This document shows positions 27 through 48,781 of a stretch of 64,000 bases of DNA, in pieces. Positions within the stretch are counted from its first letter, which is position 1. Each line of letters begins with the position of its first letter. The notes below the pieces were generated by a model. The model did not search any database. It had not been told where the DNA came from and saw only the letters and a program-made list of their open reading frames with translations. Source of the stretch: Polystyrenella longa. GTDB taxonomy: Bacteria; Planctomycetota; Planctomycetia; Planctomycetales; Planctomycetaceae. The stretch is taken from positions 1,091,211 through 1,155,210 of the forward strand of contig NZ_CP036281.1 of assembly GCF_007750395.1 (NCBI RefSeq). The letters run 5' to 3'. A program made the translations under genes and the position numbers.

Positions 27-3000
27 ATGCCCGTTTTGAATCGCCTGATTCGTGTGACGCCTCTTCGCTTCTCTTGCTCCCAACTTACCGCAATCGTGTT
101 TTCGACAGCCTTGTTCCTGTCGCTGACTTCCTGTGGTGTTCCTGCCCGCTCTTTCTTGATAGCTGAGGAACCTCCTGTAGAAGAGCTTTCCGAGGAGGAG
201 CAACGCCAGAACCTGATCATGGAGCGGTATCTGTCCATCCTGGAACGGAACCCGCAGCAGGGAACCGCCTTCAGTCGCATCTACTCGATGTACGTCGAGC
301 AAGGGAGGTTGGACGAATTTGTCGAATCGTATCAGGACAAAGTTGAACAGAATCCGGAGGATGGCGCCGCCTGGAAAGTCCTCGGGCTGATCGAGTCGCA
401 GCGTGGGCAGGAAGCAGAAGCGAGTAAAGCCTACGAGAAGGCGGAAGAGTTGCGACCGGAGGATGCCTCTGCCTCGTACTACCTGGGCCAGTCGTTACTG
501 TTGCAGGGACAACAAGCCGCCGCCGTCGAGGCGTTCGAGCGGGCGATCAAGCGAAACCCGCCCGCGAATGAGTTGCTGGAGGTTTATCAGTCGCTGGGAA
601 AAGTTTATCAGCGGATGCAGGAGACCGAAAAGGCACTCGAAGTTTGGAAGCGTTTGGATGAAGAATTCCCCAACAGTCAACGTGTGCAGGAACAGATTGC
701 GATTACGCTTGTGGAGGAATCGGAGTTTGAGGAAGCCCTGAAACGTTATCAGCAGATGGAAAAAGAGACGACCGACGATTACCGGAAAGTCACTTACGGG
801 ATCAAAGTCGCGGAAATGCAGCTTAAGCTGGCTCAGCGCGAAGAAGCATTGGCACAGTTTGAAACTTTAATGAACAATCTAAACCCGAGCAGTTGGTTGT
901 ATCGCCAGGTTCGGGACCGGATTGAAAACATTTTTCTGCGCAATAGCGATCAAGCTGGCTTGGCCGCTTACTACGAACAATGGTTGGAGAAAAATCCGCG
1001 CGATATTGATGCGATGGCCCGTTTAAGTCAGGTTCACTTTCAGCAGGATCGGGAAGAAGACTCGGAGAAGATGTTGCGGAAAGCGATTGAACTCGCCCCG
1101 TCTGATACCGATTTACGGAATCGGCTGATTTCACAATTGATTCAGTCGCGCGAAAATGAGGCGGCGATTGCCGAATATAAGAAACTGAACGAAATTGAAC
1201 CCAATAATCCCGAAACCATTCGTGACTGGGGATTTCTGATTGTTCTTGATCGTTCTCAAAAGAAAGCCGAACGACAGGCAGCGGCGACCGCCGTGTGGGA
1301 GCAGATACTGAAGGAACGGAGCGACGATCCTGTGATTGTTTCTCAGGTCGCCGACTGGCACCGTGAAGCCGAAATGGAAGACAAAGCAATCGCGCTCTAT
1401 AAAAAAGCGATTGAGCTTGCTCCTGAAAATGTGCAGTACCGGGAATACCTGGGCGAATACTATCATCAGCTTGAGCGGAAAGAAGAGGCACTGGCGACCT
1501 GGAAGGAACTGGTCGCGGGGGAGAACCGAACGACACGAAACCTGATTCGACTGGCGGAAGTTCTGCGTGGCTTCGGTTATCAGGAGGAAGGGTTGGCCTA
1601 TATGGAGGAGGCCTGTCAGGACGATGTGGAATACGCTGACCGATTGAACTATTCCCGTATGCTGATGGAAGACGAACAGGCCGAGCCAGCGCTGGCTCAA
1701 CTGGATCTCGCTTTGCCTCTGGCCGAGAACGACGAAGAACGGCATAACATTCTCCGAGAACGAATTCGCGTTTTTCAAGTTGCCGAAACGTTGGTCGAAA
1801 AAAGAACTCAGCTGCAGAAAGAACTGGAAGACGAAGCGAATCAGACGTCAGAAAAATGGACTCGGCTTGCGTTGTACTATGAGGCAGAGGGCAATGCGGA
1901 TGAATCCTACAATGCGGTGCGTGAGGCATTGAAATATGACGACCTGAAATTACCGACGTTGGTCTCGGCAGCACGTATCGCCGAGACGGTGGGTGACTTG
2001 GGCGGGGCAGTGACGATCCAGGAGCGAATGCTCACTCTCGACCGAAAATCTCGTCCCGATTATCTGCGTCAGCTCTCTCAACTGGAATTGCAACTGGGCC
2101 ACCCGGAGAAAGCGATTGACTATGCACAACAATTGATCGCTGCCTCACCGGGATCGGTAGAGGGGTATCTGTTCTACGCGAATCTCTGTTTTGAGTTGGG
2201 ACGCGAGGACGAAGGGTTCAAAACGCTCCGAAAAGCGGTTCGGCTGAATCCAAATGATCAGGAAACCTTATTTGCTCTCGCCGGTGCACTAAGCAGGCAT
2301 TATCGATCTGAAGACGCGATTGAACTGTACTGGAACGCTTTCGATAAGGCGGATGATCTGGATACACAGATTCAAGTGATGGGGCAATTGACCTCGCTTT
2401 ATCAACGTATGGGCAAATTTGAAGAGTTGGTGGAACGGGTTAAATCGAAACAGCAGTCACAGGAGGGGCAGCGAGAAATCAATATGGTGCTCGCGTTCGC
2501 CTATAAAAGCGTCAACGATTTTCAAAATGCTCGCGAAATTCTGGAAGGACTCCTCGAGGCCGAGACACCGGATCCACGCATTCTGGAAGAGTTGGTCGAT
2601 ATCGCGGAGTCGGCCAATGAAATGGAGTTGGCGATTCGGTACATGACCCAGTTAAAGGAAGTCGTTCCCAGTGAACGGAACGAATTCCGATTGCTGCAAA
2701 TGCAGCTCAAAAATGGGGATATCGAACAGCTCGATCTAATCCTGACGCAGTTGACTGTCGGTAATCCTGATCTCGATGAGATTCATCAAATGATCGATTC
2801 GTTGATCGAGCGAAAGGATTTCAACGCAGCGTTGGAAGTGACTCGAAAAATGCGGCCCTCGCATAAGGCTGATTGGGAACTGCAATTGAAAGAAATTCTC
2901 CTGTTACTGGCACTCGACCAGACGGGAGAAGCTCAGGAATTGGTCAGCGACTTTGTTGAACTTGACTTGCCCGACATGGAATATTCTCAAGGGACAGCGA

Positions 3001-6000
3001 AGCAGATCGAACAGCGGAAGAAGACTTACCAGCAACGGGGGATTTCTGAAGAATTCCGGGACTACACTGTTTATCAGCGGCTCAATCGTTTGATGCAGCA
3101 GCCGAGTGCGATCGAGGCGTTGGTCCAAGCCTGGAAACAGAATCAGAATTCAAGTAATTATGCTTTGGGAATGTCGGTAATGTTTACTCGCTCATCCGGG
3201 GGCGTTTCACGACTGTTTGATAACAACTTTCAAACCTATGGCAACGCGAGGGTTCTGGCGATTCAATGGTTGGCTGCCGCCTATGATGCCGAAAAGCGTG
3301 ACGAACTTCTCAGTAAGTTCGAGAAGAAATGGGAATCAGAACCGAATAATTTTCAGGCAATCTGGAACCGGCTCTGTCTGGTCACCCTTCAAGAAGACAA
3401 TACGGCCGCGTTGAAGTTCGCCGCACAATACATTGATCGCCCGGAAATCGAGTTCGCTCAATTCTGCGTTTCCAAGCTCCATGAAATGTCGCCGATCATC
3501 AATAACAATCGCCGTATAAGCTATACAGCGTTAGGAAACACTTCCCAGATTCAGACTAGTGAAGTCTCTTTTAAGCCTGTCTTGACCGATGCACAGCTTG
3601 ATCTTCTCGTTAAATCCTATGAACGACTGATGAAGGAACAAAAAGGGGCGAGTGTCCATTACCAGCAGCAGCTGATCGCTCAGCTGAAGAAACATGACCG
3701 GGAAGAGCAGGCTGATGAGATTTATCAGGAGATGTATGCCTCTGTAAACACTCCTCAGGAGATCCAGTCACTCCTGAGCATAGAGATTCAGAATCAGAAA
3801 TATGATAAATCGCTCGAATTAATGGAGCGGTTGGTCGAAGGCTTAAAGCAGAATAAAAAAGATCAATCCTGGCAGCGGTATTACGACTCTCTCGGACAAT
3901 TTTTTCCTCAACTTATGCTTACGCTGAAGACTGAAAAGAAGATGGATGAGTTCCATCAGCTCTTTGAAATTGCATTGGATCTTTATAGCGATTCTTCTGG
4001 TCAGCCAAATCAACAGGCTCACAATCCGTTTAGAATGCCTATTAGTCAAGTCGGTTCGATGAGCCAGACCCAGTCTGTTGCCGTGATGATTCAAATGAAT
4101 CAATTTGAGCATCGGGAGATCAAATATCCCATTGCAAATGAGATACTTCCCTATGCCCCTATTCAAGCATTCTACAATTTCTTCTTTCAATGTAGTTCTG
4201 AACCAGAACAGGTCGAAAAACTGATCGCAACGGTTGAGAAGAAAATGGCTGCCGCTGCTCCGGAGCAGCAGGTGTACTATCGCCTGGTCGCCTCTTCTTT
4301 CCAGTGGTGGAACAATAAACCGGAAAGTGCACTGGACGAACTTCTGGCCGCGATAGAGCAAATGCCAGAAGTCAGCTACGAGATGCGTGAGCAGCTTGCT
4401 CAACTTTATATCAGCGAAAACGAATTCGAAACCGCTCTGCAATGGCTGGATAAAAGCGAGCCGGACAATATCAAGGACTTGCAGAAAAGAGAGCTCGCCG
4501 CACTGGATATCGCTATTTCAGGCGGAATCGAAGAACGCGCCCGGGTGGCAGCAGAACGCCTGAGTTCCATGCGTCTCGATTTTAATACCCAACTGGAACT
4601 GTCCAGAAAGATGAAGACATTGGGTATGGAGGAACTGGCGGCAGTGACATTGAAACGATCTCGCCAGCAGGCGGGTAGTAATTCGAACAATCTTTTTCAG
4701 TTGATGACTCGGTACCAGACTCATAATCCGGAAATCGCTTCTGAAATTGCCATGCAAATCCTGCAGAATACGACTTTGGGTAACCAGCGTAATTCCAATC
4801 AAGATGTCTACCGACAACAGGCGGTGCGGATTTTGCAATCGCAGAATCGTCTGGCTCCTCTCATTGAGGAAACAGAAGAGAAATTGAAAGCTTCTCCCAA
4901 GTCGATTGAGATTATGGAACATTTACAGGTTTATCTGGAAGCCTCTGGAAAACGGCAACGGTCGGCGGAGATTGAAGAACAGATATTGAAGCTTAAACCA
5001 TTAACGAAAGAAGAACTGGTCGAGCGCGCCGAACGCGCGGCTAACGCCGGGCAATACAATCAGAGCATCAAACTATTCGAACAGGTATTCAAAGAATCAC
5101 CGGAAATAATCGGTCACCGGTTTTACAGCATGGGACGAGCATTCCGTGAAGCGAACCAACTCCAAGAACTGGTTGATTTGTTAGAGGGAGTGGAACTCAA
5201 AAGCAAGATTCATTCTAACGATATCTCCAACTTGATGCAGCAATTTCGTCCTCGGAATAATACCGAAGGTGATGCCGCCGCAAAGCAGGCTGTGCGGCTC
5301 ATAGCGATCTTCTGGGATTCACTTAAAAACGAACGTCTCACATTGTTGAACTCACTCGCAAGCATTCAGCAGAAGGAAGAGTTCTGGCAGAACAAACAAT
5401 TGAAGAAGTACCTGCAAGAAGCGTTTCTGCCCAATGATGTCACGACGGTTCGGCAGAATACCAATTACGAGTTACAGCAAATCCACCTTCAAAATTATGA
5501 TAAAGAGGGCAAAACGACTTCTTTATACAGTCATTTGCTCAACTCGTTCGAAGATAAAAAAGAGATGCTGGCGTTCCGTGACAAGGTGGCCGAAAAGGTT
5601 GGAGAAAATGACTTCTGGATTAACGGAAAGCTTGTACTTTGCCTGCTCGATGTCAAACTTGGTCGGACAGAGGATGCCAAAAAAGACCTGGATGAAATTA
5701 AAGAATCCAGCGTAAGCTTACCAGATCACATCAAGCGGTTTGTCGCTCAGGTGCTGGAGGAATCCCCAGAATTAAGAGACGATGCGATCTCCATTTACGA
5801 AGAACTCGTCGCCAATCCTACTGGAAACAACAATAGCGACTTCCGGTATCGACCCGAAAACCGCTTGCTGCATCTGTATCTGGAGAACGGTCAGAAATCG
5901 AAAGGGGTTCAGTTGCTGGTGAAAGAGCTGAATCGGCCAATGGATCACTCTTCCAATGCAGATTATCAAACCTCGCGTGAGATAAGTCGATTGCAGGAGA

Positions 6001-9000
6001 TCGCCAATCAGTTTGAAGAGCTGGATATGAAGTTCGAGGCCTATGTCCTCAATCAACGTATGCTGATGAATACATCCAAGCTGGAGCGGGCGAGCCGCTA
6101 TCTGGGTTCCACGTTTGTCAATCGTTTGCAGGAAAAACAAGCGAAATTGCTTTTGACAATGGAGAGCGAACAAGTACAAAAATCGCTTGAAAGTGACTAT
6201 ATTTTGGCGCTCGCTGGTCAGAGAAAGTCAGACTTTCCCTTTCTCGTGGAACAGATTCTGGCTACCAATCTCGATGAGTCCGGTGATATGGAACTCAGCA
6301 ATCCTTTTCTGGATCAGCTGACGGAGTCTTTGGATCCGAAGTCAGATTCAAAATCGATGAACATCCAGGGGATAAAGGAAAAAGCAACTCGAAAAGACCG
6401 CATTGCCGCCACACGGAAAGTTCTGGAGATCTTCAATGAATATTTGAAGACAAATGAACTAGAGCAGCCCGAAGAACCGACCTGGTTACTCGCCCGGTTG
6501 CTGTTGCAGACGCTCGATCCGAAATTCTCGGTTAAAACTGCCGATCTTGAGATTCTTCAAAACTACCTCGCCGCGATCTCCGTTTCGGACAAGAAACCGG
6601 GATTGGAAAATACGTCGGATGAAAATATAGAATCGAAGAAAAGCGACGAAGAGACTGTATCGGAAAGATCGATCAATCTGAGAACTGACCAGAAAAAGCA
6701 AGTCATATTCTCCTGTTGGGTTTTGGCGGAAGCACTCTGGAAAGACGAGACCTCTTTGGAGCAGGGGGATGCCCTGTCCGAGTCGGCGCTGAATAATATT
6801 CGCAAGATGATATCACTCTCCGGTGAGAACAGTATAAGCGAAACTGATCGCGAGGCATGGTTGATGAGCCTCCTTCGATCCCGTGGGGCCGAATACCTTC
6901 GTCGTGGAAATAAGGAAGCGGCGGAAAAAGATTGGCGTGAAGTTCTCGATCTGCTGATATCCGCTTCAATGAAACTCAGAAGCAACGTTCTGGAAGTGCT
7001 AATCAATCCAAGGTCAGCTATTCCCACTGTCGCCTCTTCGCCGAAACTGATTGCTAAATCACAATCGATTCAGATCGGCAGTCAGAATAAAACAGAGAAA
7101 GAGGAGAAGGCAGAAGGGAAATCCGAGAAGAAAAATACTCCAAAACCATTAGAGTATGATCGTTTTGAAAAAGTGTTCTCTTTGGCGTTACTGATGGCGC
7201 GGGAAGGCATGCCCGAGCTTTCGTTGGAAGCCGTGGGCAAAGCAATCGATAATGGGATTCCCCTGTATAAGGGAGATGCAATCGTCTACTACGGAAATAC
7301 AAATTGGAGCAGGATTGAACGGCTAACTTTGATGACCGAAGGAGTTCTGTACGACAAGCTTGTCGAATTGGAAGGACTCTGGCGAGAACAGGGTGTTCCG
7401 TTGGCGGATATTTATCGACTGTATCTCAGCATCATCTTTCCTGCTTCAGAACCTGAGGAAATGTATGTTTGCCATCAACTTCCGATACAGTTGCCCAGTT
7501 CCAATACGGCCATGTCGGGCAAGAACCCGCACTTGGTCTTTCCTTCATTCCAATACGATAATGAGGATTCCAATAACCAGGAGAAGTCGGGATCCGCACA
7601 AGATGCTCACGCTGAAGTATCCCATGACGCAGAAACTCATACTGGAAATGGTTGGTCGAAAGTCCATGGAAAAGAATATGACGCTCGCAGCCTGATGCAA
7701 CGAACGCTGTTGTTGTCCGTAGAAATGGATAGTACAGAACAATTTAAGGAAGTTCTCAACGAGAAACTATCGGTCGAATCTCAGGAGCTAGCTATACGGA
7801 CAATCTTGCTTGAGTTAGCGACTGTACAGGACCAGTTTGAGCAGGTGGGTCAACAGCTCGATCTGATTACGCCTCTTCTGGAAGAGAAGCTTTCGACTAA
7901 AGACGTTCGCAAACTTTGTTCGGTTCTCGTTCCCTTGATTCAAGCATCGAAAGAAGTTGACAAGGTCATTCCCATTTATGAAGCGGCGATTGACAGTCTG
8001 GAAACACAACATTCTCCCGAACCGGCTTCCAGTGCGTTAGAGATTCTGGGCAACTATTACATTGAGCAAAATGAGCTACCTAAGCTGCTTGAGGCCTTCA
8101 GTAAACTGATGAAGCATCAGCAAAACGTCCGGCAGGGGACGGTGAACTCCCAGTTCGGAATCCAGACTTATTCTCTCAGTTCCGGGGTGGCGCGGATGTT
8201 TGCCACCATCTTAAAGCACACCGACATCGACACCAGCATGGAATACCTGGCTGTTCTGTACGATGCCGGGAATGGTCGCGTGTCGGGCCTGCGGGAAACA
8301 TTAACGCGTCTGTATTATAAGTTGAAGCAGCTTTCACCTGAGGAACGTTACCCGCTTCTTCACGACTGGGTGTTTGTCGACGGGAAACCGAACGCCGATC
8401 TTCGACACTTTTCAGAATTTATGCCAGCCGATTTCCCGCCCGGGCGATTCATGAAAGTGACCACCGATGATTCTGATCACGAGATCACGGTGACTCACAA
8501 CACGTCTAATGTGTTTGATACGACGCAGTTACTTTGGGAGTCGGCCCTGGAAATTGGAAAAGACCAGGAATTGCTGGCTGAGTTTCAGGCGCTGAGTAAT
8601 AACCATCGCGAGATCAACTTTCAAAACTATCTTCTCGGTCTCTACCAGAATCCACAAAGTAAGCAAGTCTATTTTGAGACTTTGCGAACAGAGATGCAGG
8701 AGCAACTGCTTAATCAACGTAACCTGTTGACTCCCGAAATGATGGCGATTGCCATGGATGCTCTGGTTCAATCCGAACTGCATGAAGAGGCCAAAGAATT
8801 GATCGACGTATTTCGCGTCGCCAGCAGCCGACCCAGCGCAGCAAACCGTGAAAACCTGGTGCGCTCCAACGCGTTTCAATGGGAACATGCGAAACTGAAG
8901 CAACCTGCTTACCAGCATTCCACCGAAACGGCATTGCCCTATTGGGTATCGACGACTCAATTTCATTTTGCCCCCAGTTTGGAAGGGGCCTTTGACGCTG

Positions 9001-10832
9001 CGTTCTATGGCCAGAATGAATACATCAAACACGAAGCGAGTTCTGGTGACAGCTTCATCTTCTTCAAATATCCACTGACAGGCGATTTCGAATTCTCTAT
9101 GGAGACGTTGAATGATCGTTGGTCGGAAGGACACTTCGCTTATGGCGGATTGACCTATCAACTCGAACTCGGAAGCTCGGGTGAGATTTGGGGGATGGGA
9201 CGTCAAGGAGGAGCTATCCTGAGCACGAATACGTTGGAGCGTGCTGTCTTCAACGAATTCAAACTGAAAGTCACGGCGGATAACGTCAAGATGTTTATGA
9301 ATGACGAAGAGTTTTCGAACGAAGATCATCCGTCTCAGACCAGTCCGTGGATTGGTCTGTTCAGCGAAGATGCTGTCCGCAGTTATTTTCGGAATCTGAA
9401 ACTGACGGGAGATATCACCATACCTGATCAGGTCGACCTGGTCGGGCCGTCCGGAATGCGGGGATGGGTTGGATCCTGGTTACAGGAAGAAGTCGAAAAC
9501 GTAGTTCCCGACTATCCCGATGCCCGCGAATCGAATCGTTTGATTCCGGATGAAATCTGGGTAAATCAAAATGGCGTTCTTACTGGAAAACAGAGTTCGA
9601 CGAAGATCTCTCATGCGACGATGCAAAGTTATCTCTACTACCACCGCCCGTTGCTTGATAAAGATGTTGTTACGTATGAATTCTTCTACGAGAAAGGGAA
9701 GATTGACGCTCATCCCGCCCTGGGGCGAATGGCATTTCTGATAGAACCCGATGAAGTTCGTCTCCATTGGATCATTCAGGAAAACGAGACACATTGGTCT
9801 GGTCTGGAATACGACAACAGTGCCGCCCTGAAAGAAGGGGAACAACTGACGGACAAGATTCCTCTCAAAGAGGGCGAATGGAATCAGCTTCGATTTGAAT
9901 TGAACGAGGGGAAAATTCGTCTCACTTTGAACCACGAGCCCATCGTCGAAATCGTGAATGAACAAGAGGGCATTCCGCATTTCGGTTTCTTCCATTACAA
10001 GAATCTGACCGAACTGAAGGCGAGAAACATCGTGCTGACCGGTGATTGGCCCGAGTCGCTGACGGCGGAAGAAGTTCTGAAGATGATGACCACCTATGGA
10101 TCGAAACTCGCTTCTCCCGACGATGCGGCTCAGCAGGCAACTCCTGTGGCTTCGCTGATTCCAGAGGAGATTATCTTTGATCACGTTGAAGATATTCTGA
10201 ACCAGTCGCGGCAACGAGATCCGGAGGCAGCTTATCTGTTCCTTAAGAAGTGGGTCGTTCCCAATGTCGAGCATGACACCTTCCGACTTTATCCAGCAGT
10301 GGTAGGAATGAAGAGGGGCAAAGAAACGTCCAGCACGGAAGAGGTAAACTCAGTTCGCTATCTGGACGCTCCTGTATTTGATTTGATCGAGCAGGCGGAG
10401 CTTACAGGCAAACTGAACGAACTGATTAACGAAGCGAACTCGTTGACGATGGAAACCCCCAATCAGAAAATCAGCCAAACCGGTTTTCTGATTCTGTCAG
10501 AACTTTCCCGAGACAATGCCGAAGCGATCGATAAGCTGTTACCACAGTTTCTAACTGAACTTGACGCTCTGACAGATCCGGAGTTCTTCTGGAATCAGTG
10601 GCCCGGAGTGGTCGTTTATAAAGCCCTGAAAGAGCAGGGGACTTATGCTCCCGAGTTAGAACAACTTGCCAAAGCGATCGAAGCCGTCGGTTCTCCCAGC
10701 GGTCATAACGAATTCTCTGTCATGCGCGACCCGGTTCGCTGGAACGAAGCGTGGGACCATGTCACAAGCGAAGATGCTTCGGCAGAAGAAACGTCTGCAG
10801 AAGAAGCGGAAGCCGTCTCAGAACAAAAATAG
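27..10832 (+). CDS. Giant TPR lipoprotein (3601 aa) with C-terminal beta-sandwich domains
   Basis: The N-terminus has a hydrophobic signal ending in LSLTSC, a lipobox, so a membrane-anchored lipoprotein facing outward is likely. Residues from about 60 onward form long arrays of TPR-like helix pairs (for example NPEDGAAWKVLGL, APENVQYREYLGEYY) that continue with decreasing regularity to about residue 2800. Two lysine/glutamate-rich linkers lie near residues 2195-2220 and 2355-2375. Residues about 2970-3130 and 3160-3345 are two beta-rich segments resembling LamG/DUF1080-like sandwiches, and the layout recalls the planctomycete DUF1581/DUF1583 giant proteins (from memory, not searched). A purine-rich AAGGACGG lies just before the ATG. 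A scaffold role on the cell surface is inference; substrate and partners are unknown. The frame is open for the whole length. Confidence 0.93.
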   Translation: MPVLNRLIRVTPLRFSCSQLTAIVFSTALFLSLTSCGVPARSFLIAEEPPVEELSEEEQRQNLIMERYLSILERNPQQGTAFSRIYSMYVEQGRLDEFVESYQDKVEQNPEDGAAWKVLGLIESQRGQEAEASKAYEKAEELRPEDASASYYLGQSLLLQGQQAAAVEAFERAIKRNPPANELLEVYQSLGKVYQRMQETEKALEVWKRLDEEFPNSQRVQEQIAITLVEESEFEEALKRYQQMEKETTDDYRKVTYGIKVAEMQLKLAQREEALAQFETLMNNLNPSSWLYRQVRDRIENIFLRNSDQAGLAAYYEQWLEKNPRDIDAMARLSQVHFQQDREEDSEKMLRKAIELAPSDTDLRNRLISQLIQSRENEAAIAEYKKLNEIEPNNPETIRDWGFLIVLDRSQKKAERQAAATAVWEQILKERSDDPVIVSQVADWHREAEMEDKAIALYKKAIELAPENVQYREYLGEYYHQLERKEEALATWKELVAGENRTTRNLIRLAEVLRGFGYQEEGLAYMEEACQDDVEYADRLNYSRMLMEDEQAEPALAQLDLALPLAENDEERHNILRERIRVFQVAETLVEKRTQLQKELEDEANQTSEKWTRLALYYEAEGNADESYNAVREALKYDDLKLPTLVSAARIAETVGDLGGAVTIQERMLTLDRKSRPDYLRQLSQLELQLGHPEKAIDYAQQLIAASPGSVEGYLFYANLCFELGREDEGFKTLRKAVRLNPNDQETLFALAGALSRHYRSEDAIELYWNAFDKADDLDTQIQVMGQLTSLYQRMGKFEELVERVKSKQQSQEGQREINMVLAFAYKSVNDFQNAREILEGLLEAETPDPRILEELVDIAESANEMELAIRYMTQLKEVVPSERNEFRLLQMQLKNGDIEQLDLILTQLTVGNPDLDEIHQMIDSLIERKDFNAALEVTRKMRPSHKADWELQLKEILLLLALDQTGEAQELVSDFVELDLPDMEYSQGTAKQIEQRKKTYQQRGISEEFRDYTVYQRLNRLMQQPSAIEALVQAWKQNQNSSNYALGMSVMFTRSSGGVSRLFDNNFQTYGNARVLAIQWLAAAYDAEKRDELLSKFEKKWESEPNNFQAIWNRLCLVTLQEDNTAALKFAAQYIDRPEIEFAQFCVSKLHEMSPIINNNRRISYTALGNTSQIQTSEVSFKPVLTDAQLDLLVKSYERLMKEQKGASVHYQQQLIAQLKKHDREEQADEIYQEMYASVNTPQEIQSLLSIEIQNQKYDKSLELMERLVEGLKQNKKDQSWQRYYDSLGQFFPQLMLTLKTEKKMDEFHQLFEIALDLYSDSSGQPNQQAHNPFRMPISQVGSMSQTQSVAVMIQMNQFEHREIKYPIANEILPYAPIQAFYNFFFQCSSEPEQVEKLIATVEKKMAAAAPEQQVYYRLVASSFQWWNNKPESALDELLAAIEQMPEVSYEMREQLAQLYISENEFETALQWLDKSEPDNIKDLQKRELAALDIAISGGIEERARVAAERLSSMRLDFNTQLELSRKMKTLGMEELAAVTLKRSRQQAGSNSNNLFQLMTRYQTHNPEIASEIAMQILQNTTLGNQRNSNQDVYRQQAVRILQSQNRLAPLIEETEEKLKASPKSIEIMEHLQVYLEASGKRQRSAEIEEQILKLKPLTKEELVERAERAANAGQYNQSIKLFEQVFKESPEIIGHRFYSMGRAFREANQLQELVDLLEGVELKSKIHSNDISNLMQQFRPRNNTEGDAAAKQAVRLIAIFWDSLKNERLTLLNSLASIQQKEEFWQNKQLKKYLQEAFLPNDVTTVRQNTNYELQQIHLQNYDKEGKTTSLYSHLLNSFEDKKEMLAFRDKVAEKVGENDFWINGKLVLCLLDVKLGRTEDAKKDLDEIKESSVSLPDHIKRFVAQVLEESPELRDDAISIYEELVANPTGNNNSDFRYRPENRLLHLYLENGQKSKGVQLLVKELNRPMDHSSNADYQTSREISRLQEIANQFEELDMKFEAYVLNQRMLMNTSKLERASRYLGSTFVNRLQEKQAKLLLTMESEQVQKSLESDYILALAGQRKSDFPFLVEQILATNLDESGDMELSNPFLDQLTESLDPKSDSKSMNIQGIKEKATRKDRIAATRKVLEIFNEYLKTNELEQPEEPTWLLARLLLQTLDPKFSVKTADLEILQNYLAAISVSDKKPGLENTSDENIESKKSDEETVSERSINLRTDQKKQVIFSCWVLAEALWKDETSLEQGDALSESALNNIRKMISLSGENSISETDREAWLMSLLRSRGAEYLRRGNKEAAEKDWREVLDLLISASMKLRSNVLEVLINPRSAIPTVASSPKLIAKSQSIQIGSQNKTEKEEKAEGKSEKKNTPKPLEYDRFEKVFSLALLMAREGMPELSLEAVGKAIDNGIPLYKGDAIVYYGNTNWSRIERLTLMTEGVLYDKLVELEGLWREQGVPLADIYRLYLSIIFPASEPEEMYVCHQLPIQLPSSNTAMSGKNPHLVFPSFQYDNEDSNNQEKSGSAQDAHAEVSHDAETHTGNGWSKVHGKEYDARSLMQRTLLLSVEMDSTEQFKEVLNEKLSVESQELAIRTILLELATVQDQFEQVGQQLDLITPLLEEKLSTKDVRKLCSVLVPLIQASKEVDKVIPIYEAAIDSLETQHSPEPASSALEILGNYYIEQNELPKLLEAFSKLMKHQQNVRQGTVNSQFGIQTYSLSSGVARMFATILKHTDIDTSMEYLAVLYDAGNGRVSGLRETLTRLYYKLKQLSPEERYPLLHDWVFVDGKPNADLRHFSEFMPADFPPGRFMKVTTDDSDHEITVTHNTSNVFDTTQLLWESALEIGKDQELLAEFQALSNNHREINFQNYLLGLYQNPQSKQVYFETLRTEMQEQLLNQRNLLTPEMMAIAMDALVQSELHEEAKELIDVFRVASSRPSAANRENLVRSNAFQWEHAKLKQPAYQHSTETALPYWVSTTQFHFAPSLEGAFDAAFYGQNEYIKHEASSGDSFIFFKYPLTGDFEFSMETLNDRWSEGHFAYGGLTYQLELGSSGEIWGMGRQGGAILSTNTLERAVFNEFKLKVTADNVKMFMNDEEFSNEDHPSQTSPWIGLFSEDAVRSYFRNLKLTGDITIPDQVDLVGPSGMRGWVGSWLQEEVENVVPDYPDARESNRLIPDEIWVNQNGVLTGKQSSTKISHATMQSYLYYHRPLLDKDVVTYEFFYEKGKIDAHPALGRMAFLIEPDEVRLHWIIQENETHWSGLEYDNSAALKEGEQLTDKIPLKEGEWNQLRFELNEGKIRLTLNHEPIVEIVNEQEGIPHFGFFHYKNLTELKARNIVLTGDWPESLTAEEVLKMMTTYGSKLASPDDAAQQATPVASLIPEEIIFDHVEDILNQSRQRDPEAAYLFLKKWVVPNVEHDTFRLYPAVVGMKRGKETSSTEEVNSVRYLDAPVFDLIEQAELTGKLNELINEANSLTMETPNQKISQTGFLILSELSRDNAEAIDKLLPQFLTELDALTDPEFFWNQWPGVVVYKALKEQGTYAPELEQLAKAIEAVGSPSGHNEFSVMRDPVRWNEAWDHVTSEDASAEETSAEEAEAVSEQK

Positions 10833-10853: not shown

Positions 10854-12035
10854 TTAACCCAACGTCGCCACTTCCGTCTGCACCGGGCCGCCGGTGACAT
10901 GAACGTTGTTATCGTGGTCGATATAGACATTCACCTCGCTGCGAATCCCGAACTCGGGGAGATAGATCCCGGGTTCGATGGAGAAGCAGGTGCCGGGTAG
11001 GAGGTGCCGTTCTTCGTGGGTTTCCAGGTCGTCCATGTTAGCCCCATTGCCGTGGGTTTCTTGGCCAATGCTATGGCCCGTGCGGTGAATGAAGTACTCA
11101 CCGTAACCGGCCTCGTTGATGACGTCGCGTGTCCAGCGGTCGACCTGCCAGCCCTGAACCGGTTTGCCCGCTTTGCAGTGAGCTTTGATCTCGCTAATCG
11201 CCTTGTCTCGCGCTGCGGCGACAATTTTGAAAACATCATTGTACTGCTGCGGAGCTGTCGGACCGACATAGGCGACGCGGGTCAGGTCGCTGTAGACTCC
11301 TTTGGGTTTATCCATCTTGGCCCACAGGTCGAGTAACACGAACGAGTCTTTTCCGATCAGTGTTTGCGTTCCCTGTCCTGTTTCGTAATGCGGGTTCCCG
11401 CTGTTTTCATTGACGGCGACGATCGGAGGGTGATAGGTCGTCATGCCATTCTTCGCGAAGTGATCCATAATCAGATCGCTGACTTCCTGTTCCTCCACAT
11501 GTTCGCCACTCTTCGCCACACTGTGAATGAAGTCCCACGCCAGATCGAAAGCTGCTGTTGTGTGTTTCTCCGCCTCCAGGTGGAGTTGCCACTCCTCTTC
11601 GCTCCAACTCGCTTCAAACATCTGGATCAGGTCGCCTGAAGAGATGACATCCAGAACGTACCGGCGTATGAGCTCAATCGTCCCGGCATCCACGCGTGCG
11701 ACATAGGGATTAGATGCCAGTGGAGCGTATTCCATGGCGACCTGATCGACATTGCTGAGGATGGCTTCCAAGTGCTGTTCCAGTTCTTGCCAGGCGAGGT
11801 AGACTTTTTTGTCGCCGGGTAAATGATCGAGCACGCCCGATTCAATCCGATGGACCAGTTTGATCGGTTCGCCAGTTTGCGGAATGAAGTAGAAAAACCG
11901 TCGAGAGCTGACTTCCTTTTCTGACAGTCCCAACACCCGCCGGGCGAGAACGTTGCTTCCACGGAAATCGTACAGCAGCCATCCCGAAACGTTCTGATCG
12001 GCAAGGGCCTGTTGAATCTGTTGGAGGTCAAACAT
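10854..12035 (-). CDS. M24 family metallopeptidase (Xaa-Pro aminopeptidase-like)
   Basis: A 393-residue pita-bread metallopeptidase that is expected to remove N-terminal residues, typically before proline, from peptides in the cytoplasm. Residues 1-150 are the creatinase-type N-terminal domain and 155-390 the catalytic domain. The five expected metal ligands can be placed: D236 and D250 in the segment LLDLWAKMDKPKGVYSD, H321 in HRTGHSIG, E354 in SIEPGIY and E367 in GIRSEV. There is no signal peptide. It converges on the giant TPR gene with only 21 bases between the stops and lies downstream of the SPFH gene, from which a terminator separates it. The exact substrate preference cannot be read from the sequence. 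Confidence 0.93.
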   Translation of the reverse strand: MFDLQQIQQALADQNVSGWLLYDFRGSNVLARRVLGLSEKEVSSRRFFYFIPQTGEPIKLVHRIESGVLDHLPGDKKVYLAWQELEQHLEAILSNVDQVAMEYAPLASNPYVARVDAGTIELIRRYVLDVISSGDLIQMFEASWSEEEWQLHLEAEKHTTAAFDLAWDFIHSVAKSGEHVEEQEVSDLIMDHFAKNGMTTYHPPIVAVNENSGNPHYETGQGTQTLIGKDSFVLLDLWAKMDKPKGVYSDLTRVAYVGPTAPQQYNDVFKIVAAARDKAISEIKAHCKAGKPVQGWQVDRWTRDVINEAGYGEYFIHRTGHSIGQETHGNGANMDDLETHEERHLLPGTCFSIEPGIYLPEFGIRSEVNVYIDHDNNVHVTGGPVQTEVATLG

Positions 12036-45092: not shown

Positions 45093-45141
45093 TCCTATTC
45101 TGAAACAGTTTGACCTTAAACCGTTTGATTGTATTCAACAA

Positions 45142-45186
45142 AAAACCTCTCCACTGCAATGGTTTCGCAGGGGAGAGGTTTTTTAT
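45142..45186 (+). terminator. Terminator after the secretion ATPase
   Basis: A long stem AAAACCTCTCC/GGAGAGGTTTT with an inner CTGC/GCAG extension is followed by TTTTTTA. The AAAAAA run on the other side makes it effective in both directions. Confidence 0.9.
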
Positions 45187-45654
45187 GCCTACTCGTGGGA
45201 CTGAGTTCGGCAGGATTGTTTTGAGTGTCGTCGTTGGGCTTGGCACCGCTTAATGAGGCGGGGGTCTTCAATGCTGGCAGCAGTTGATGCGTTACCAGTA
45301 TTTTCTGGTAGGCAAGCAAGCCGTCGTTGATTGTGGGGAGTTGTAAGTAAAACCCGGCGAAAGAAAAAACGGCATCCATGCCGAAGGACACCCTCCATGG
45401 CATTTGTCTTATCGCAGAGAATCAGCCGATTCAGAGCAGAGTGAACAGTCGTGCTTTCTTCCGGCCGGGTTTCGTAAATCTGAAAGGCATACCATTGCCA
45501 ATCAGAAGTGGTGCATGCATACAAAGCGTAATTTGGGTCGCGACTTCGAGATCGCGTTGGTAGGGAAGATAAGTATAGAGCTGGCAGTCAGTTTTCATCT
45601 GACAGGACCACCGCTGGCCGTTACCTGGATGTTCTGAGTAAACAGTGAAGAACG
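45187..45654. other. Region between terminator and mraZ with only broken minus-strand frames
   Basis: Three overlapping minus-strand frames in different phases (45116-45403, 45189-45524, 45431-45721) have partly protein-like composition, for example YACTTSDWQWYAFQIYETRPE, but none has a clear start or an identifiable domain. A decayed gene is possible. Confidence 0.4.
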
Positions 45655-46137
45655 TTACTCGGACAGATCCCGGAAGAGCGGATTGAACTCTGGCATCTCT
45701 TGCTGGAGCGTTTCGAGCCACGCATCCGGATTCCAGATTTCCACGCAGATGGCTGCTCCTACAATCATGACTTCCTGATTCACGTCCACGTTCAGAAACT
45801 GTCTGAACCCTTCGGGAATTAACAGGCGCGAACGATTGGCTAATTTAACCGTCGTGGAGCGGGTCGAAAGTAAACGTCCGAGACGCTGAACTTCTCCCCA
45901 TCGTTGCTCCATTCGACCAGCAGATACTTTCTGCTTGATCAGGTTAACGCCGACGTCGACTCGCTTCTGCCATTCGGCAGCAGACCAGAGTGACAGGCAG
46001 CCATAACGCTCTTTGGTCAGGATCGTTTCCCCGGCTGGATCGGTGACCGCTTCTGCCATTTCATTCGGCAATGAGAGACGAAAACGATCGTCGATCGTTC
46101 GTTTCACTTCGCCGGTGATAAAGGTTTCTGCGGACAT
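45655..46137 (-). CDS. mraZ: MraZ-type transcription regulator (orphan)
   Basis: The 160-residue protein has the two AbrB/SpoVT-type half-domains of Mra[20 protein letters not shown] and [21 protein letters not shown], and the [15 protein letters not shown] segment typical of the family. MraZ binds TGGG-type repeats and represses the division/cell-wall operon in other bacteria. Here no rsmH, ftsL or murein gene follows; the gene stands alone. Its own upstream region carries two equal 15-bp palindromes with TGGGT and TCCCA arms, suggesting autoregulation. A GAGGAGG precedes the ATG at 46152-46158. Confidence 0.92.
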
Positions 46138-46183
46138 GCGTTCGGTGCCGATAGAGGAGGTTTAAGTTGCCTGTCTATCTTAC

Positions 46184-46198
46184 TGGGTCGATATCCCA
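46184..46198 (-). promoter_or_regulatory. Candidate MraZ operator, proximal palindrome
   Basis: TGGGTCGATATCCCA: TGGG-type half-sites facing each other across five bases. It lies 47-61 bases upstream of the mraZ start. Known MraZ sites are direct TGGGN repeats with a five-base gap, so the inverted orientation is a variation. Confidence 0.55.
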
Positions 46199-46225
46199 CA
46201 ATCAACTAGTTGTTAAAGATCGCTG

Positions 46226-46240
46226 TGGGTAATTATCCCA
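46226..46240 (-). promoter_or_regulatory. Candidate MraZ operator, distal palindrome
   Basis: TGGGTAATTATCCCA, identical in the arms and in spacing to the proximal site, which starts 42 bases away (about four helix turns, so on the same face of the DNA). It lies 89-103 bases upstream of the mraZ start. Confidence 0.55.
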
Positions 46241-46494: not shown

Positions 46495-48585
46495 CTATAG
46501 CCAGCGGTTTTTTAAACCATCACGAATGGAGCGACTGTCGATTCCAGTGGAGCGATAGCTCTCCAAGTCGTCGGCATCAATTTCGAGATCGGCATTGATG
46601 ATCTCGCAGCATTCCAGCACCGAGTCACTCAGGAAGCGACTCTTGCGAACAGATACGTTTCGGCCACCGGGAAAGCTGTTGTTTCGCGTAAAGTAACGAC
46701 GTGGGCAACCGACATACAGCCAATGTTTAGCACGCGTCAGCGCGACATAAAACAGACGGCGTTCTTCTTCCAGGTCGTCACCCGAACGGAGTGCCATTTC
46801 AGAGGGCAGACAACCTTCGATGGCTTGCAGGAGATAGACGACATCCCACTCAAGTCCTTTAGAAGAATGAATGGTACTGAGCACCAGACATTCCTCATCA
46901 GCATCTTGCGTCTGGTCCTTAAGTTCCATCATGGACGTCGGTGGTTCCAAGGCGAGGTCCGTAAGGAAGCTGGCCCGATTGACGTAACGATCCGAAATTC
47001 GCTCAAGCTGATCGAGATCATTTTCACGCGCACGCAGGTTGTCGTATTTTGATTCAAGAATCGGTTTGTAAAATCGGCGGACGAGTTTCAGCTGTCCCGA
47101 CATCGGTTCGTCGTCACTCCTTTTCAGGGACAGTGATTGGATCAGGGCGATGAAGAGAGGCCAGTGATCGCGCGTAGCTGCAGGCGGCTTAAAGTCTTTC
47201 CAGCCAGCGGTGATATCACTTTGCCCTTTACTCATCTCCATTAACTGCGCCCCTTTCTTGCGACCGATGCCGGGGAGCATGGTCAGCACGCGCATGACGG
47301 CGACTTCATCACGCGGGTTCTCCGCTATTCGGAGAAAGGAGAGCAGGTCTTTGGCGTGGGCTGTTTCAATAAACTTGAGGCCACCATACTTGGCAAAGGG
47401 AATATCCCGATGCCCCAGTTCGATTTCCAATGGCAAGCTATGATGCGATGCGCGAAAGAGAACGGCCTGTCGGTTAAGGGGAACACCATTCTCGCGATGT
47501 TCCAGAATCTGGGAGATCAAATAATCTGTTTGAACATCTTCGTTGTCACTTTCCACAATAATCGGCCGCGGACCTTGTTCTCGATCAGACCAGAGGTTTT
47601 TCTCGAACCGCTCCGGAGCCATGGAAATCACTCGGTTCGTCATCTCTAGAATAGGCTGAGTGGAGCGGTAATTCTGTTCCAGGGCCACAATGGTGGTGTT
47701 GGGGAAATCCTGAGGGAAATCGAGAATGTTTCGGACCGTTGCAGCGCGAAAAGAATAAATTGACTGGGCATCATCGCCAACGACGGTCACTCCCTGTCCT
47801 TCCGGAGAGAGCAACTGCAGGATACTGGATTGAAGAACGTTGGTATCCTGGTATTCGTCAATAAGAACGGCGTCGAACTGGCTGCGGATCATCTCTGCTC
47901 CCGTGTCAGAATCGAGCAGGGCTCTCCAGAAAACAAGCAGGTCGTCGTAGTCAAGAACTCCCTGTAGCTCTTTGCGATCTACGAAGGCGCGGAACAGTCC
48001 TTTAAGTTCATCTTGATATTCGGCACACCAGGGAAAATCAAATTGCAGGACTTCTTCGAGTCGCCGCTGAGAATTCATGCAGCGACTGTAGATGTCGAGG
48101 CACGTTCCCTTAAGCGGGAACCGCTTCTTGCTGTCCGCGAGATTCATGTCTATGCGCAGTAGTTGCAATAAATCTTCGGAGTCCGTTCGGTCGAGAATCG
48201 TGAACTGTGAATCGAGACCGAGTGCGTTTCCATATTTACGCAGCATACGTGCCGAGATGGAATGGAAAGTTCCTCCCCATACACCCCGACCAGGTCGTTT
48301 GCGTCCCGTTCGATCGGCATGATGGTCCAGACCTGAGAGAATCGCCTCGACTCGTCGCAGCATTTCATTGGCTGCGCGTCTCGTGAAAGTAAGCAGCATA
48401 ATGCGACGTGGGTCGACGCCGGTTGCGATCAACCAAGCGACTCGGTGTGCCAAAGTGGTCGTTTTACCAGTACCAGCTCCGGCGACGATTAGGAGCGGAT
48501 TGAGATCGTGCTCGACCGCCACTCGCTGTTGGTCATTCAGCTGTGAAAGTAGCGATTCCAGATGATCATCATCGGCTTCAACCAT
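46495..48585 (-). CDS. UvrD/PcrA-like ATP-dependent DNA helicase
   Basis: The 696-residue protein is a superfamily 1A helicase that unwinds DNA in repair and replication conflicts. Motif I AGAGTGKTTT lies at residues 35-44, then LTFTRRAANEM, the DEYQDTN Walker B box, GDDAQSIYSFRAA, EQNYRSTQPIL, STIHSSKGLEWD and LFYVALTRAK. The 696-residue length is close to typical UvrD/PcrA; the extreme C-terminal tail is short. I use the ATG at 48585, with AGGA six bases upstream, because the longer upstream frame from 48765 adds a sequence without helicase features. Confidence 0.94.
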   Translation of the reverse strand: MVEADDDHLESLLSQLNDQQRVAVEHDLNPLLIVAGAGTGKTTTLAHRVAWLIATGVDPRRIMLLTFTRRAANEMLRRVEAILSGLDHHADRTGRKRPGRGVWGGTFHSISARMLRKYGNALGLDSQFTILDRTDSEDLLQLLRIDMNLADSKKRFPLKGTCLDIYSRCMNSQRRLEEVLQFDFPWCAEYQDELKGLFRAFVDRKELQGVLDYDDLLVFWRALLDSDTGAEMIRSQFDAVLIDEYQDTNVLQSSILQLLSPEGQGVTVVGDDAQSIYSFRAATVRNILDFPQDFPNTTIVALEQNYRSTQPILEMTNRVISMAPERFEKNLWSDREQGPRPIIVESDNEDVQTDYLISQILEHRENGVPLNRQAVLFRASHHSLPLEIELGHRDIPFAKYGGLKFIETAHAKDLLSFLRIAENPRDEVAVMRVLTMLPGIGRKKGAQLMEMSKGQSDITAGWKDFKPPAATRDHWPLFIALIQSLSLKRSDDEPMSGQLKLVRRFYKPILESKYDNLRARENDLDQLERISDRYVNRASFLTDLALEPPTSMMELKDQTQDADEECLVLSTIHSSKGLEWDVVYLLQAIEGCLPSEMALRSGDDLEEERRLFYVALTRAKHWLYVGCPRRYFTRNNSFPGGRNVSVRKSRFLSDSVLECCEIINADLEIDADDLESYRSTGIDSRSIRDGLKNRWL

Positions 48586-48744
48586 GAAGCATCCTGAGGT
48601 AAGGAGGTTGTGAGTGAATAAGCTTGATACCCAAGCGGTCGTATTGCAGCATTGAAGGTCTTGGACGGCAAGATAATCATAGCAGCCGACGGTTCCCGCT
48701 CCTACCCCCCGGAATTTCTCAAGCGGGTTCGGGGAAACCAAACA

Positions 48745-48781
48745 ATAAAAAAGCCCTCGCTGCAAAGGGCAGGAGGGCTTT
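48745..48781 (-). terminator. Terminator after the alpha-glucan phosphorylase gene
   Basis: On the minus strand the stem AAAGCCCTC/GAGGGCTTT is followed by TTTTATTG. It lies 37 bases after the glgP stop and separates it from the helicase gene. Confidence 0.88.

Follow-up and report, generated by a model that had tools for sequence, protein, structure and literature searches.

A stand-alone second MraZ paralogue of the class Planctomycetia and a conserved pair of candidate inverted-repeat operators upstream of its gene

The 64,000-nucleotide stretch of the Polystyrenella longa genome that we analysed (hereafter the window) carries a gene for an MraZ-like protein, here called mraZ2, which is flanked by a uvrD-like gene and by a gene for a type II/IV secretion ATPase. 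Between mraZ2 and the uvrD-like gene (46495-48765), both of which lie on the minus strand, are two exact copies of TGGGT-N5-TCCCA whose starts are 42 bp apart, equal to 4.0 helical turns at 10.5 bp per turn (Table 1). A preliminary description of this DNA had pointed to two such sites, 42 bases apart on one face of the helix, and both are present exactly. Read along the gene strand, the block consists of the distal site TGGGATAATTACCCA, a 27-bp stretch that contains GATCTTTAACAA and ends in TTGATTG, the proximal site TGGGATATCGACCCA, a single G and the hexamer TAAGAT. These two are the only exact matches to the 15-mer in the whole window, and a scan allowing up to two mismatches gave 49 matches, the number expected by chance (mean 50.6). 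The exact pattern occurs 17 times in the 6.13-Mb genome and a reversed control six times; running ARAGORN on seven of these 17 loci showed that four overlap tRNA genes (L005, L013, L015 and L018). Elsewhere in the window, an inverted repeat with flanking runs of A and T (45139-45190) sits where mraZ2 and the secretion-ATPase gene converge and looks by eye like a two-way terminator, which the terminator scan did not list, and a 3601-residue open reading frame (27-10832) contains many degenerate repeats that appear TPR-like by eye.

Table 1. Coordinates of mraZ2 and of the candidate regulatory features upstream of it (window positions)
Feature	Position	Strand	Basis
mraZ2, MraZ-fold paralogue, 160 aa	45655..46137	-	ORF; Pfam; AlphaFold2; structure matches
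Predicted -10-like hexamer TAAGAT	46177..46182	-	TANNNT at the same place in 101/123 family loci
Proximal candidate operator, gene strand TGGGATATCGACCCA, inside the predicted promoter spacer	46184..46198	-	Exact; matrix score 19.2; conserved
Predicted -35-like hexamer TTGATT	46200..46205	-	TTG at the same place in 105/123 family loci
GATCTTTAACAA element between the two candidate operators	46210..46221	-	TCTTT between the sites in 112/123 family loci
Distal candidate operator, gene strand TGGGATAATTACCCA	46226..46240	-	Exact; matrix score 16.8; conserved

The preliminary description called the gene an orphan mraZ, which is apt for the locus but not for the genome, where a second, canonical mraZ adjoins a homologue of rsmH/mraW. 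This copy, mraZ1, lies at C1:3361 kb and is followed by the gene for the MraW homologue, then by genes for a LysM protein and a PBP transpeptidase. Because mraZ1 stands beside rsmH in the same genome, we rejected the idea that mraZ2 is the canonical (dcw) mraZ displaced from its operon; what had been described as a dcw mraZ standing alone is a separate paralogue, which does not occupy the dcw-head position before rsmH/mraW. In a tree of 90 sequences, comprising 60 of 180 MraZ2 proteins drawn at random by group together with 30 MraZ1 proteins, the two types are split with an SH-aLRT value of 100. Near full-length matches to MraZ2 (E up to 3.4e-61; 59-89% identity, the query itself apart) were found in 128 of 150 genomes of the family Planctomycetaceae, which NCBI taxonomy places in the class Planctomycetia, and 131 of 297 sampled genomes of the class match it at E up to 1e-20. 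Among 245 genomes sampled from the phylum, every MraZ2 match below E 1e-50 belongs to Planctomycetia. Strong matches to MraZ1 outside the genus show only 35-54% identity, and MraZ2 is on this ground the slower-changing of the two paralogues. We conclude that mraZ2 is a stand-alone second MraZ paralogue of the class Planctomycetia.

Ten family genomes, each at least 96% complete, have MraZ2 but yield nothing better than E 3e-7 for MraZ1 (G004, G009, G013, G021, G027, G048, G050, G055, G060 and G086). In the four of these with a listed place the weak MraZ1 match is MraZ2 itself, and a very diverged MraZ1 could be missed in the ten. Fourteen other family genomes that are at least 96% complete, mostly of genus g34, show the opposite pattern.

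Several lines of evidence place MraZ2 within the MraZ family. The protein matches the Pfam MraZ model (PF02381) with 53.5 bits (cut-off 23, E 2.4e-14) in one stretch, residues 95-154, and it falls below the equivalog cut-off of TIGR00242 in NCBIfam (46.1 bits against 98.35) as well as below the cut-offs of the four further NCBIfam MraZ models listed. An AlphaFold2 monomer model, built with 75 orthologues in the alignment, has a mean pLDDT of 95, and when it was used as a Foldseek query all 16 matches at E up to 0.001 were MraZ or UPF0040 chains, including promoter-bound MraZ (9r4j and 9sz7). Comparison of the model with MraZ structures by VIA gave Z scores of 16.1-16.3 and an rmsd of 2.7-3.0 over 138-141 residues; the lower-ranked Foldseek and VIA rows, which are weak matches to other proteins, were left out. 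By its predicted structure, then, MraZ2 is a member of the MraZ fold and family, and by analogy with other MraZ proteins it probably forms a ring oligomer.

We determined how well the paired sites are conserved by reading the DNA upstream of mraZ2 in other genomes, allowing spacings of 30-54 bp and preferring few mismatches and then nearness to 42. Among the 128 family loci, 123 have a pair of TGGG-N7-CCCA sites, neither with more than one mismatch. The spacing is 42 bp in 67 of these and 41 bp in 56, and the remaining five loci have a two-mismatch partner at 41 or 42 bp. When exact sites were counted at any spacing, 79 pairs fell at 41 or 42 bp and every other spacing had at most five. The pair was absent from the control stretches searched, namely the coding region (128 loci) and the region from -1400 to -920 (123 loci); since all 128 family loci hold a second site at 41 or 42 bp, the pair exceeds chance. 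Outside the family we read 59 loci whose proteins have 43-58% identity, of which 56 were counted, L283, L291 and L303 lacking upstream DNA. The pair lies at 41 or 42 bp in 45 of the 56 and a two-mismatch partner lies there in nine more; L306 has only a half-site at 42 bp and its best pair at 52, and for L307 neither 41 nor 42 bp yields a partner. The conservation check proposed in the preliminary description thus came out in favour of the palindromes, which are kept upstream of mraZ2 orthologues at 128 of 128 loci in the family and 54 of 56 outside it.

That description had also contrasted the inverted form with the direct repeats known for MraZ, and the contrast is borne out within single genomes. 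The P. longa mraZ1 gene is preceded by TGGGG-N5-TGGTG-N5-TGGGG, that is, by GTGGG direct repeats spaced by 10 bp. In 30 MraZ1 loci, which are the best-scoring ones rather than a random sample, TGGG-N7-CCCA does not occur within 200 bp of any, while 23 have exact TGGG repeats at a spacing of 10 or 20 bp and the rest show degenerate GTGG repeats by eye. In place of TGGG-type direct repeats at intervals of about 10 bp, mraZ2 has the inverted pair at 41/42 bp upstream. The mraZ2 sites conform to the consensus GTGGG-WWWYNNR-CCCA. Its asymmetry shows at position 4, an A or T in 113 of 123 distal and 106 of 123 proximal sites, and at the mirror position 10, where G or A, mostly G, stands in 117 and 120, respectively; the distal and proximal sites share one orientation.

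A sigma-70-like promoter is predicted here, and the proximal site occupies the whole of its 17-bp spacer. With eight matching bases out of 12, against a cut-off of nine, the promoter is missed by a plain consensus scan, and the call rests on conservation: TTG and TANNNT hexamers bracket the proximal site in 101 of 123 family loci. Both hexamers are missing in 18 of the 123, and at the family's places both hexamers occur in none of the 45 pairs from outside the family, from which the TCTTT element is likewise absent (0/45). Blocking of the spacer therefore cannot be the general mechanism, and the operator outlives the promoter sequence that surrounds it, since the pair persists without the hexamers or TCTTT.

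To define how exclusively the pair belongs to mraZ2, we searched all 150 family genomes. The exact pair (gap 26-27) was found in 81, at a single place in each, and the reversed control was found in none; of the places listed, for 75 genomes, 74 are at mraZ2 by by-eye comparison and one, in G054, is elsewhere. We considered tRNA genes as a source of the pair and rejected them, as G054 holds the only listed place that overlaps such a gene, a predicted tRNA-Sec. The exact pair is present in 79 of 128 genomes with MraZ2 and in two of 22 without (G054 and G110, the latter without a strong MraZ2 match and with its place among the six unlisted), which corresponds to a Fisher p of 3e-6 with genomes counted as independent and kinship uncorrected. 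The promoter-embedded form of the pattern has 73 places in 72 of the 150 genomes, 72 of them at mraZ2 by eye, against one in the control; the remaining place, in G076, is inside an open reading frame.

The preliminary description had further proposed that the palindrome might define a regulon, and among the genomes scanned no wider regulon is evident beyond mraZ2. A strict single site, GTGGGWWWNNNRCCCA, has 407 matches in 101 genomes compared with 94 for its reversed control. The first 83 of these 407 (18 genomes) comprise 23 at mraZ2 by eye, 35 that are tRNA-like, as judged by the ending GAACCCA, and 25 others, and in these 83 the others amount to 1.4 per genome, compared with 0.93 in the control; any excess is weak at most. 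Apart from those at mraZ2, the two best sites noticed in the P. longa genome are inside open reading frames (L016; window position 11053). A direct-repeat pattern is present in 61 genomes, in some at MraZ1 and with most listed places elsewhere, and we drew no regulon from it. We think that MraZ2 has very few strong targets besides itself. A further strict match lies about 230 bp beyond the end of mraZ2 in one genome (G026:C59:78198-78213).

The genes around mraZ2 vary. In flanks of 1.5-3 kb, shorter at contig ends, from which open reading frames overlapping mraZ2 were excluded, the largest cluster of neighbours covers 29 of 185 loci, and a same-strand, BLAST-supported frame directly downstream of mraZ2 was found at six of 185. 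The two biggest initial clusters (101 loci each) were discarded, being taken as mostly antisense frames over mraZ2. The UvrD or secretion ATPase of the window is near mraZ2 at 12 of 128 family loci, and no conserved neighbour such as a toxin gene emerged from these flanks.

From these sequence patterns we infer that MraZ2 is the protein that binds the pair and that it represses, and we consider it likely that mraZ2 controls itself in this way through two phased inverted-repeat operators. An oligomeric MraZ2 would bind both pseudo-palindromes (GTGGG-WWWYNNR-CCCA) from one side of the helix and, with one of them in the -35/-10 spacer and the other just upstream, four turns away, would shut the mraZ2 promoter. 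One palindrome would be read by the two unequal halves of one subunit, through DNA-contact loops that would be altered relative to those of MraZ1, and the oligomer would couple the two sites. At promoters of the family form, polymerase would thereby be blocked; other lineages have a different promoter geometry and perhaps a different mechanism.

Self-repression has to be weighed against other uses of the same block. MraZ2 might bind the pair and activate, or switch between activation and repression, given that the distal site would lie about 56-70 bp ahead of the transcript start expected near 46170, a usual position for activators. It is also the better kept of the two sites, free of mismatches in 110 of the 123 pairs compared with 87 for the proximal site, and outside the family the pair occurs without the same framing hexamers. 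However, the proximal site fills the hexamer spacer, the usual place of a repressor, in most family loci, and known MraZ proteins repress their own operon, which leaves activation an unlikely reading. Control of mraZ2 by some other DNA-binding protein, whether MraZ1 or an unrelated regulator, could draw on the TGGG half-site that is common to the MraZ1 repeats; we regard it as more doubtful still, since the exact pair is kept in all ten of the genomes at least 96% complete that have MraZ2 and no clear MraZ1, is present in none of the 14 equally complete genomes that lack MraZ2, and is found almost exclusively at mraZ2.

The block might instead act as RNA, forming two small hairpins around a boxA-like element as a signal for antitermination or processing. 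We take GATCTTTAACAA to resemble an rRNA boxA or an UP element (a 16S search of the P. longa genome, made for comparison of the rRNA leader with boxA, gave no match, perhaps because of masking), and the 57-nt stretch folds somewhat better than shuffled sequences (z -2.47). The proximal site would, though, precede the expected transcript start, and the pair outlives TCTTT outside the family with its phase kept. In the 123 pairs, moreover, none of the arm changes is compensated: all 20 G-to-A changes remain opposite C, and of 29 changes to the outer pair 14 give T-G, which an RNA could tolerate. Because these pairs were picked at no more than one mismatch per site, compensated double changes would escape the count, and one of the five two-mismatch partners, at L107, is complementary on both changed sides. 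With that caveat and that exception, the uncompensated changes favour recognition as DNA, and we give the RNA reading very little credence.

MraZ2 resembles canonical MraZ in its predicted fold, in its two-half architecture and in having sites upstream of its own gene, and within the same genomes its sites share the TGGG core with the MraZ1 repeats. The two differ in that the MraZ2 sites are inverted and 41/42 bp apart whereas canonical boxes are direct and about 10 bp apart, and in that mraZ2 stands alone. E. coli MraZ and its promoter repeats were reportedly described by Eraso et al. in 2014. AbrB/MazE-type swapped-hairpin regulators and antitoxins have a DNA-binding fold related to that of MraZ, and inverted-repeat operators and self-control are common in these systems. 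Unlike them, MraZ2 has two unequal halves in one chain, its gene showed no conserved neighbour such as a toxin in the flanks read, and its site is asymmetric with constant polarity. A passage of PMC8475190 gives direct repeats AAAGTG[T/G] for M. genitalium MraZ and reports the motif once, at mraZ, as a single target, a habit that MraZ2 appears to share. PDB entries 9r4j and 9sz7 are described as MraZ bound to its promoter. A literature search covering few subscription journals returned no title or abstract on a second MraZ or on inverted-repeat MraZ sites.

MraZ, a regulator linked to division, is widespread, yet the Planctomycetota reportedly divide without FtsZ; passages of PMC12283558 and PMC10632474 state that Planctomycetes lack it, and the word mraZ is absent from the main text of PMC10632474. 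A slower-changing second MraZ with its own class-wide operator offers a testable entry to planctomycete gene control, and two paralogues per cell provide a natural experiment in which one fold would move between direct and inverted repeats.

How the fold might have made this move is suggested by the DNA loop of MraZ, the region that contacts DNA, in which a DxxxR motif is expected in both halves of the protein. Counts for MraZ2 are from 180 proteins, excluding L283, L303 and the loci where the first codon falls on a stop (L138, L139, L150, L153 and L297). Its first-half loop has the motif, reading DxRxR in 100% of the 180 (D16, R20), and its second-half loop does not, reading AxRxR with A100 in place of D (A100 90%, R102 91%, R104 100%). 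MraZ1 has DxKxR as its first-half loop and DxQGR as its second-half loop, with the D, K, Q and R present in 30 of 30. From these loop sequences we infer that the two halves of MraZ2 may have grown more alike in their contacts with bases, a likeness that would fit the reading of an inverted repeat by a single subunit. We offer, as a tentative and perhaps doubtful extension of self-repression, a switched mode of recognition in which the two halves of one subunit, each with an RxR loop, would read the two arms of one asymmetric palindrome. The ring would join the two sites four turns apart and, through looping of the DNA, would in some lineages also take in a third site lying 84-324 bp further upstream, MraZ2 being the more strongly conserved MraZ and kept where a canonical MraZ was not found.

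Within the window the site matrix lists no third site upstream of mraZ2. Among the 123 family loci, 32 have one 112-366 bp upstream of the proximal site, with 19 sites in the 200-250 bp bin, compared with four sites in total in the stretches beyond 400 bp upstream and in 1 kb downstream. The third-to-distal distances (84-324 bp) cluster in helical phase, with R 0.50-0.53 at periods of 10.3-10.5 bp and a Rayleigh p of 0.001-0.004, in the 23 loci that remained of the 32 after by-eye removal of five near-copies and of four loci with reverse-strand or two sites; as the loci are related, this phasing is no more than suggestive. The third site may be an auxiliary operator for looping. Examples are found at L025, L081, L082 and L062.
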